From positions 1 to 64,000 of the forward strand of contig NZ_NHSN01000017.1 of NCBI RefSeq assembly GCF_016653405.1: a DNA stretch of 64,000 nt. Reading direction: 5' to 3'. Positions 2 through 19,892 of the stretch are shown here, piece after piece (positions within the stretch are counted from its first letter, which is position 1; the number at the start of each line of letters is the position of its first letter). Both the position numbers and the translations under genes were made by a program. The notes beneath the pieces were generated by a model. The model worked only from the letters and a program-made list of their open reading frames with translations. It did not search any database and was not told the origin of the DNA. The stretch is from Halorhodospira halophila. GTDB lineage: Bacteria > Pseudomonadota > Gammaproteobacteria > Nitrococcales > Halorhodospiraceae.

Positions 2-51
2 CTGCGATGCTCGGCGCGCTCAATGCCCCCGGGTCACCCCGGCGTCCCCGC
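2..51 (-). repeat. Partial copy of an inverted-repeat element, cut by the window edge
   Basis: Read on the minus strand, bases 25 to 2 match bases 17900-17923 of the element at 17863-18105 at 23 of 24 positions (core GAGCGCGCCGAGCA). Before that core both copies begin with GCGGGGA (here the complement of 45-51), but the sequence in between differs: here a GGGGTGACCC-like hairpin, there a different GC-rich arm. The copy continues past base 1, so its far arm cannot be seen. Bases 52-91, up to the rsmA stop codon, show nothing else that I recognise. Confidence 0.55.
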
Positions 52-16773: not shown

Positions 16774-17769
16774 TCACTGCCAGTTGCGCTCGTAGGGGCC
16801 GAGGGTGGTGGTGGCCCCCTCGGAGAACTCGCGCAGGGCCGCCACCTGCGCCGGGTCCGGGGTGTAGTCGCCCTCGGCTTCGGGGATGCGGTCGATGAGC
16901 TGTCGCCAGATGCGGGTCACCTTACCCACGTAGGCCGGGCTGCGCTGGCGTCCCTCGATCTTGACCGCGTGGATGCCGGCGCGCTTGAGCCGCGGCAACA
17001 GCTCGGCGGTCTCCAGGCTGGTGGGCGACTCGAAGGCGTGCTCCAAGGCCCCCTCGACGTCGTAGCGCCCCTTGCAGATGGTCGGATAGCCCGCCGGCTC
17101 GTCGGGCGCGAAGCGGTCGATGAGCAGCCCACCGAGCCGCGCCTCGCGGCCCTGGGGGGTCTCCTGCCACTGCACGGCCCACGCCGGCGAGCACGCCCCC
17201 ACGGTATTGGGCGATTCGCCGGTGGCGTAAGAGGAGAGCAGGCAGCGCCCTTCGGCCATGACGCACAGCGAGCCGAAGCCGAAGACCTCGAGCTCGACGT
17301 CGGTATCACCGGCCAGGGCCTCGACCTGCTGGATGGAAAGCACGCGCGGCAGCACGGCGCGGCTGACCCCGTAGCAGCGCTTGTAGAAGTCGAGGGCCTC
17401 GGGGGTGGTCGCCGAGGCCTGGACGGAGAGGTGCAGGCCCAGATCCGGCCACTGTTCAGCGGTGTACTCGAGCAGGCCCAGATCGGCAACGATGACGGCG
17501 TCGGCGCCGATGCGGGCGGCTTCGTCGATGGAGCGCTGCCATTGCGCCCATCCACCGGCCTGGACGTAGGAGTTGACGGCGACGAGGACGCGCACGCCCC
17601 GCTGATGGGCGTGCTCGACGCCCCGTGCGGCCTGCTCCGGGGTAAAGTTGAGCCCCGGGAAGTGGCGTGCGTTGGTCGCATCCCGGAAGCCGATGTAGAC
17701 CGTGTCGGCCCCGTTGTCCACGGCGGCGCGCAGGGCGGTCAGGTTACCGGCCGGGCAGAGCAGTTCCAT
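16774..17769 (-). CDS. ubiU: UbiU: U32-family subunit of the O2-independent ubiquinone hydroxylase
   Basis: Works with UbiV and UbiT to make ubiquinone without oxygen. The 331-residue protein starts MELLCPAGN as U32 proteins do. It has Cys169, Cys176, Cys193 and Cys232, which match the four cluster ligands of E. coli UbiU as I remember them. GGAGGAACC precedes the ATG. In an anaerobic phototroph this would let the quinone pool be made under anoxic light, which is inference. Upstream lie a 9-bp direct repeat and a large inverted-repeat element. Confidence 0.94.
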   Translation of the reverse strand: MELLCPAGNLTALRAAVDNGADTVYIGFRDATNARHFPGLNFTPEQAARGVEHAHQRGVRVLVAVNSYVQAGGWAQWQRSIDEAARIGADAVIVADLGLLEYTAEQWPDLGLHLSVQASATTPEALDFYKRCYGVSRAVLPRVLSIQQVEALAGDTDVELEVFGFGSLCVMAEGRCLLSSYATGESPNTVGACSPAWAVQWQETPQGREARLGGLLIDRFAPDEPAGYPTICKGRYDVEGALEHAFESPTSLETAELLPRLKRAGIHAVKIEGRQRSPAYVGKVTRIWRQLIDRIPEAEGDYTPDPAQVAALREFSEGATTTLGPYERNWQ

Positions 17770-17862: not shown

Positions 17863-18105
17863 CGCGGATTGCGGGGATGGCCCCTGCCGGGTGCGGCGTC
17901 ATTGAGCGCGCCGAGCAGCGCAGCCGTCGCGGGGGACCAGCGCGAACCTTTGCCGGTTCGCGCTGGTCAGCGAGGTTTTGTCCGAGCGGCGCTTCAGCGC
18001 CGCGATTTAAGCGAGCGGCCCCGCGCCGGTGAGCAGCGCAGGGGACCCCGCAGGGGCGCGCTCGTTCGACGCCGCACCCGGCAGGGGCCATCCCCGCCAT
18101 CCGCG
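17863..18105. repeat. 243-bp element with 38-bp inverted repeats and internal hairpins
   Basis: The gap between lpdA and ubiU (17770-18119) has no gene but holds a highly structured element. Its ends, 17863-17900 and 18068-18105, are inverted repeats matching at 37 of 38 positions; 30 bp are perfect. Nested inside are GAGCGCGCC (17904-17912) pairing with 18055-18063, a perfect 14-bp hairpin (17935-17948 with 17955-17968, loop TTTGCC) and a 7-bp hairpin (17986-18003). GAGCAGCGCAG occurs twice as a direct repeat (17913-17923, 18031-18041). Part of a second copy lies at 2-51. It could be a MITE-like or REP-like element or a structured RNA; no open frame inside looks coding. The rest of the gap shows nothing else besides the ubiU promoter repeat. 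Confidence 0.75.
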
Positions 18106-18119
18106 GCGACGAGCGGTGG

Positions 18120-19892
18120 CTACCTGCGTTTCTTCGGCGGCAGCAGATCGGTGATGCTGCCGCTGGCCATCTCCGCCGCCATGGCCACCGTCTCGGAGAG
18201 GGTCGGGTGGGGATGGACCGTCAGACCGATGTCGTGGGCATCCGCCCCCATCTCCAGGGCCAGGCCGATCTCGCCGATCAGATCGCCGGCACCGGGGCCC
18301 ACGATGCCGCCGCCGATCACCCGCCCAGTGTCCGCATCGAAGAGGATCTTGGAGACGCCATCGCTGGCATCGAGCGACAGCGCGCGACCGTTGGCCGCCC
18401 ACGGGAAGGCCCCCTTCTCGTAGGCGATCGCCTCGGCCTTCGCCTGCTCCTCGGTCACCCCCACCCAGGCGACCTCCGGATCGGTGTAGGCCACCGAGGG
18501 GATGGCCCGGGCGTCCCAGGCGCTCTTCTCCCCAGCGATCACCTCGGCGGCGATCTTGCCCTCGTGCACCGCCTTGTGGGCCAGCATGGGCTGGCCGACG
18601 ATATCGCCGATGGCGTGGATGTGCGGCACTGCGGTGCGCATGTGCTCGTCCACGCTCAGGCAGCCGTCATCGCCCGGCGTCAGCCCGGCGGCCTCAAGGC
18701 CGATACCGTCGCTGTTCGGACGGCGGCCCACCGCCACCAAGACGCGATCGAAGCGGTCACTCTCCGGGGCATCCGCACCGCTCAAGGTGACCGTCAGCGA
18801 CTTCTTGTTCGCCTTGACGCCGGTCACCTCCGTGTTGAGGTGGATCGCCTCGCAGCGCTTGGCCAGGCGCTTGCGCAGGACCTTGACCAGATCCGGGTCG
18901 GCCCCGGGCATGAGCCGGTCGGAGAGTTCGACCACCGTCACCTTGCTGCCCAGCCCGGAGTAGACCGAGGCCATCTCCAGGCCGATGATCCCGCCGCCAA
19001 CCACCAGCAATCGCTCGGGGATCTCCTCGAGCTTGAGGGCACCGGTGGAGTCCATCACCCGCGGGTCGTCCACGGCCAGCGACGGCGGGATCGCCGGCCG
19101 CGACCCGGCGGCGATGATGCAGTGCCGGAAACTGATGGTCCGCGTTCCCTCCTCACCGGCCACCCGCAGGTGGTGGGCATCGGCGAAGGTCGCCTCGCCG
19201 GTGACCACCTCAACCTTGCGCTGTTTGGCGATGCCGGCCAGCCCCTGGGTCAGCTGCTTGATGATGCCGCGCTTCCAGTCGTTGAGCCGCTCCAGATCGA
19301 TCTTCGGCTTACCGAAGGCGATCCCGTGGGCGGCGAACTGATCCGCCTCGTCCACCACCTTGGCGGCGTGGAGCAGCGCCTTGGAGGGGATGCAGCCGAC
19401 GTTCAGGCAGACGCCGCCGAGGACCGGGTACCGATCCACCAGCATCACCTTCAGCCCCAGGTCGGCGGCCCGGAAGGCGGCACTGTACCCCCCCGGCCCC
19501 GCGCCGAGGACGACCAGGTCGCAGTCCGCCTCCTGCGGGGCATCGGTGGCGGCCGCGGCCACCCCTTCGTCCGCCGGGGTCTGCTCGGCGGGTGCCCCGG
19601 TGGCGGCCCCACCGGCCGCGCCCTCGCCGGCAGCCGGATCACCGCCGGCGGCCTCTTCCGCCTGGAGGGTCAGGATCGGAGACCCCTCGGAGACCGTATC
19701 GCCCACCGCCACGTGCACCTCACGCACCACCCCGGCCGCGGATGCGGGCACCTCCATGCTCGCCTTGTCGGATTCCAGGGTGATCAGTGATTGCTCGGAC
19801 GCGGCCCGATCCCCCGGTCCGACCAGCACCTCGATGACCTCCACGGCCTCGAAGCCGCCGATATCCGGTACCTTGACCTGTTGCTCAGCCAT
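18120..19892 (-). CDS. lpdA: Dihydrolipoamide dehydrogenase (E3) with N-terminal lipoyl domain
   Basis: Reoxidises the lipoyl groups of the pyruvate dehydrogenase complex with FAD and NAD. From the ATG at 19892 (GGAG eight bases upstream) it has 590 residues, about 120 more than a plain E3. The extra part is an N-terminal lipoyl domain with Lys43 in ESDKAS, joined by an Ala/Gly-rich linker (about 80-120). The E3 core then shows [11 protein letters not shown] and the redox pair Cys162/Cys167 in [13 protein letters not shown]. Third gene of aceE-aceF-lpdA. Its lipoyl coding sequence is nearly the same at DNA level as that of aceF. Confidence 0.95.

Follow-up and report, generated by a model that had tools for sequence, protein, structure and literature searches.

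A folded non-coding repeat beside lpdA of Halorhodospira halophila appears to belong to an unnamed repeat family of proteobacteria

The analyzed window, a stretch of 64,000 nucleotides from Halorhodospira halophila (contig NZ_NHSN01000017.1), contains a non-coding palindrome of 243 bases (17863-18105) adjacent to lpdA. Its two neighbor genes are oriented in the same direction, with the lpdA stop codon located at 18120-18122 on the minus strand and the ubiU start at 17769. The identities of LpdA, UbiU, UbiV, and AceF were confirmed by NCBIfam, and a conserved promoter-like stretch (GGTTAGAATGC) lies between ubiU and the element. The placement between both genes with a promoter on the ubiU side, as given by the first-pass annotation, is therefore correct, apart from the distance to the lpdA stop, which was given as 15 bp and measures 14 bases. 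Likewise, the near-perfect 38-bp inverted repeat described there is real. The outer arms (17863-17900 and 18068-18105, annotated without strand) comprise 38 nt each, are separated by 167 nt, and pair at 37 of 38 positions (97% complementary). At every other locus, the arm sequence is different, with its self-complementarity kept.

The whole element is predicted to fold into a single nested structure of -193 kcal/mol, compared with -127.6 +/- 4.9 kcal/mol for its shuffled versions (z = -13.55). None of 200 shuffles folded equally well, which substantiates the earlier proposal of nested pairings within one long structure. Read on the plus strand, stem P1 is formed by GAGCGCGCC (17904-17912) and GGCGCGCTC (18055-18063). 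The adjoining GAGCAGCGCAG (17913-17923) represents the 5' side of an internal loop, a mini-helix, and a second internal loop, and is kept in all copies with the mini-helix pairs preserved; the 3' side, covering internal loop and mini-helix, is provided by TGAGCAGCGCAG (18030-18041), a direct repeat of 17913-17923. Next to the loops is stem P2 (17924-17934 with 18019-18029), of which a GCGGGG/CCCCGC stem, initially listed as merely possible, turned out to be a portion. Hairpin P3 (17935-17968) has a perfect 14-bp stem (17935-17948/17955-17968) and is replaced by different hairpins in other copies, whereas P4 (17978-18010), of the form TGTCCGAGC-hairpin-GCGA.TT, has a counterpart in distant relatives reading TGTYTGAGC..GCGAGTT. 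A small hairpin P5 (CCCC-GCA-GGGG) is located at 18046-18056.

Comparison of 85 distinct copies showed a core with two identical internal loops, CGA/GCAG and GCAG/YGA, flanking the mini-helix. The variable pair of the mini-helix is TA in 52, GC in 29, and CG in 4 of these copies and unpaired in none, and in a copy from Variovorax a second pair is swapped from CG to GC. At most positions of P2, which follows the loops, all Watson-Crick pairs were seen, and P2 encloses one or two inner hairpins varying between copies. The window copy carries the full arrangement defining the family, i.e., both loops around a paired mini-helix, followed by P2. Covariation of the stems, proposed at the outset as a check, was determined in an alignment of 22 copies from outside Halorhodospira and proved to be very strong: 133 double-change cells were counted vs 45 +/- 5 after shuffling, and the covariation score amounted to 0.63 vs 0.15, with at most 0.13 in slid controls. 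The two strands of P2 covary strongly among these relatives. A covariance model (R1) built from the same alignment, with zero Halorhodospira sequences, matched the core of the window copy (17909-18044, plus strand; 40.2 bits, E = 3.5e-6) as well as every other Halorhodospira locus searched. Consequently, distant and Halorhodospira copies belong to one family.

The genome hosting the window (G000, 2.86 Mb) contains approximately 19 full copies and additional fragments. Furthermore, the element was found in H. halophila-like, H. neutriphila, and other Halorhodospira genomes, in a sister genus, and in several MAGs, ruling out the one-off palindrome considered initially. Common to the copies is a core of ~130-170 nt and not the outer arms; in nearly every copy, this core is positioned on a near-perfect palindrome of 25-60 bp (or longer) with locus-unique sequence. 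Thus, the 38-bp ends, first taken for the termini of the element, are locus-specific arms, the conserved unit being the core inside them. Near-perfect arms of this kind were detected not only in Halorhodospira but also in one distant genome. A strict 18-base motif was present in 20 of 369 gammaproteobacterial genomes of 17 genera (reversed control: 0), and the Variovorax relative (Betaproteobacteria) is encoded on a megaplasmid. Several genomes harbor head-to-head pairs of copies. The element was not found in phage and viral collections, and apart from the megaplasmid copy, the inspected matches of a plasmid search represented the neighboring TTTCTTTTGG hairpin only. A separate TTTCTTTTGGTTACTTTTCTTT hairpin follows many copies outside Halorhodospira. 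This second widespread intergenic hairpin (TTTCTTTTGGTTACTTTTCTTT...AAAGAAAAGTAACC), noted at the loci L109, L121, L137, L138, L155, L176, and L177, also occurs alone, e.g., in the lpdA-aceF gap of a Burkholderia cepacia plasmid. Several contigs of the window's genome (C9, C10, C15, C17, and, at window positions 2-31, the window's own contig) begin or end inside a copy, so that the palindromes probably break the assembly.

The copies are mostly intergenic and located beside unrelated genes. In combination with an orientation that is not conserved at orthologous loci, this leaves one of the initial proposals, a processing site dedicated to the aceEF-lpd/ubiUVT transcript, without support. Convergent-gene spacers are preferred: a simple codon-composition test, which was wrong for at least one locus (L012, convergent by inspection), assigned 21 of 41 copies to them, and the two flanking stop codons are often about equally far from the element. 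This arrangement, the strand symmetry of the fold, and the vertical inheritance of the element would be in agreement with a role useful to the host, as a bidirectional terminator or topological insulator between convergent genes, comparable to that of BIMEs. We regard such a function as improbable, as around half of the copies including the one in the window are not convergent, orthologous spacers without the element exist, the long stem is devoid of a T-run terminator, and the conserved internal loops would be left unexplained.

For most copies of G000, G006 contains an orthologue at the corresponding position. Between these orthologues, the core is on average ~93% identical (range 88-99%), exceeding the flanking, mostly coding DNA (~88%; 84-95%), and the outer arms are the fastest-changing part (~70-75%; mostly 65-81%). 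Inside each copy, however, arm pairing is mostly 87-100%. Arms diverging between orthologues yet matching within a copy reveal that both arms of a copy change jointly. Of 13 orthologous loci, 7 have the core in opposite orientations, or 8 of 14 with the inclusion of L012, counts in which the copies are not independent and some flips could represent assembly errors or choices, since G000 and G004 are draft assemblies and G006 alone is a single contig. At L012 of G006, the core is inverted and the sequence between the two GAGCAGCGCAG direct repeats is deleted. In G000, the two convergent genes flanking this locus end in an identical ...DDEA*; the right one (cysteine synthase-like) has this end also in G006, but ...GLGEGS* in G001, and the tail common to both genes may have originated by inverted copying of the neighbor's gene end. 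Between L005 of G000 and L037 of G004, the left flank is 99.4% and the right flank 87.9% identical. The change occurs at the element and resembles the end of a recombination tract at the palindrome.

A search for empty sites, part of the checks foreseen by the first-pass annotation, was successful at two places. At the L003 locus, the core is absent in G006, G001, and G007, a 10-bp hairpin alone being left in G006, while in G000 and G004 the end of the left gene is repeated in inverted form next to the right gene. The lpdA-ubiU spacer of G005 and G007 is short and without the element. In G001 (L074), this spacer hosts a different strong palindrome with no core. The Halorhodospira copies were shown to be dispersed, and mostly old and vertically inherited. 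In G132, a genome with 13 copies (L179-L191), two copies at unrelated places are 99% identical and have identical arms as well as ~35 nt of flank in common, which, judged from sequence, indicates movement of the element. The assumption that the arms are plain target sequence at insertion is weakened by the same pair, because both arms and ~35 nt beyond them are shared. About half of the G132 copies possess short conserved ends beyond the arms (GCACAGA.CAAGTC and GACGATNNAAACCACC).

A MITE or a REP/BIME-type array had been among the initial suggestions. The part of this proposal that holds is a dispersed, mostly intergenic repeat of ~20 copies, mobile in at least one relative, whereas the characteristics of REP/RAYT systems and ordinary MITEs were not found where testable. 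A classical MITE, mobilized by a DDE transposase via the 38-bp terminal repeats, would account for terminal inverted repeats, the many copies, and the near-identical copies at different places of G132. It is largely refuted by the Halorhodospira ends, which are not conserved; no transposase could recognize terminal repeats that have no common sequence between loci. In addition, no target-site duplication is visible at L003, the one well-resolved empty site, where the palindrome confounds the reading. Altogether, we consider this origin highly unlikely. The RAYT/Y1 transposase (PF01797) is absent in G000 and in the 13-copy genome G132, and present in G008 and G002, each with at most one weak match to the element. 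The core motif was found at none of 12 RAYT loci, and a link to RAYT was rejected. With the RAYT-associated REP, BIME, and REPIN sequences, the element has in common that it is short, palindromic, intergenic, non-autonomous, and present in many copies, sometimes as inverted pairs; it differs in its much larger nested fold, its locus-specific arms, and the lack of a RAYT in the copy-rich G000 and G132. Integron attC sites are folded palindromic single-strand sites, for which structure outweighs sequence. The element resembles them as a folded palindromic site, but has no cassette array and another loop architecture. ERIC and Correia elements are examples of bacterial MITEs. Further ones, e.g., R0/R2 of Pseudomonas fluorescens (PMC2718517), are likewise dispersed non-coding inverted-repeat elements, unlike which the Halorhodospira copies are without conserved terminal repeats and have the inner core as conserved part.

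The two invariant internal loops, the very strong covariation, and a core better conserved than the flanking genes would also be expected of a structured non-coding RNA, acting in cis or trans, with stems under selection at RNA level. In the outer arms, G.T slightly exceeds A.C (72 vs 48, p = 0.035, with copies not being independent), a weak excess compatible with an RNA role of one strand. Within P2, however, G.T is rare, with a count of 11 among 477 unique cells that hardly exceeds the 7 of A.C, fitting a structure needed in either strand or in DNA. Furthermore, orthologous loci differ in orientation, which makes it unlikely that one strand functions as RNA at fixed genes, many copies per genome are located beside unrelated genes, and Rfam gave no match. 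The undescribed structured RNA brought up by the first-pass annotation is thus in line with the covariation, but is not favored due to the scarcity of G-U pairs, and we judge it unlikely. Covariation alone is no proof of selection on the fold, since template switching can itself generate it.

According to published work, template switching at inverted repeats has two products, homogenized arms and inverted spacers (PMC8604942), and it can also create and maintain hairpins (PMC8794818). Both products were found in the orthologues, and template switching thereby explains arms and flips with no need for selection on individual base pairs. We consider it probable that the element represents a non-coding interspersed structured-repeat family of proteobacteria, with a folded core on fast-changing arms that flips via template switching. 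Each copy presents the conserved folded core on top of an outer stem, and internal deletion occurs between the direct GAGCAGCGCAG repeats; polymerase template switching at this hairpin would homogenize the arms and flip the core. The conserved internal loops are not explained by template switching and suggest that some factor recognizes the folded core. With less certainty, a putative trans-acting protein might have bound the folded core and moved the element as a non-autonomous repeat; no mobilizing protein was identified, with the Y1 transposase absent from G000 and G132. Similarly tentatively, convergent-gene spacers may be sites tolerating or even profiting from insertions, with a strand-symmetric hairpin at the transcript ends. 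Arm homogenization and spacer inversion are shared with known template-switching inverted repeats (PMC8604942, PMC8794818, PMC7202029), from which the family differs in having as spacer a mobile core that is conserved and structured, and in the recurrence of inversion across many loci. The inverted gene end at L003 of G000 and G004 led us to propose renewal of the arms from the flanks, as part of a rather speculative and to us doubtful extension: a class of mobile hairpin DNA, in which a putative protein reads the single-strand core, fold-back copying renews the arms, and the core flips continually in living populations.

Rfam covariance models at relaxed thresholds yielded sub-threshold chance matches only, and the motif letters were not found in open-access papers. 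On the level of Rfam and open-access papers, with R178/R200 of P. fluorescens (PMC2718517) outside the comparison, the repeat family is apparently undescribed. It appears to be an unnamed family across many proteobacteria, and its fold is sufficiently defined to be used in searches. As arms and core evolve differently at dozens of orthologous loci, it can serve as a natural archive of hairpin template switching, comprising arm homogenization, loop inversion, and deletion between direct repeats. In parallel, it serves as a warning that covariation in such elements can be mutational and need not imply a functional RNA.
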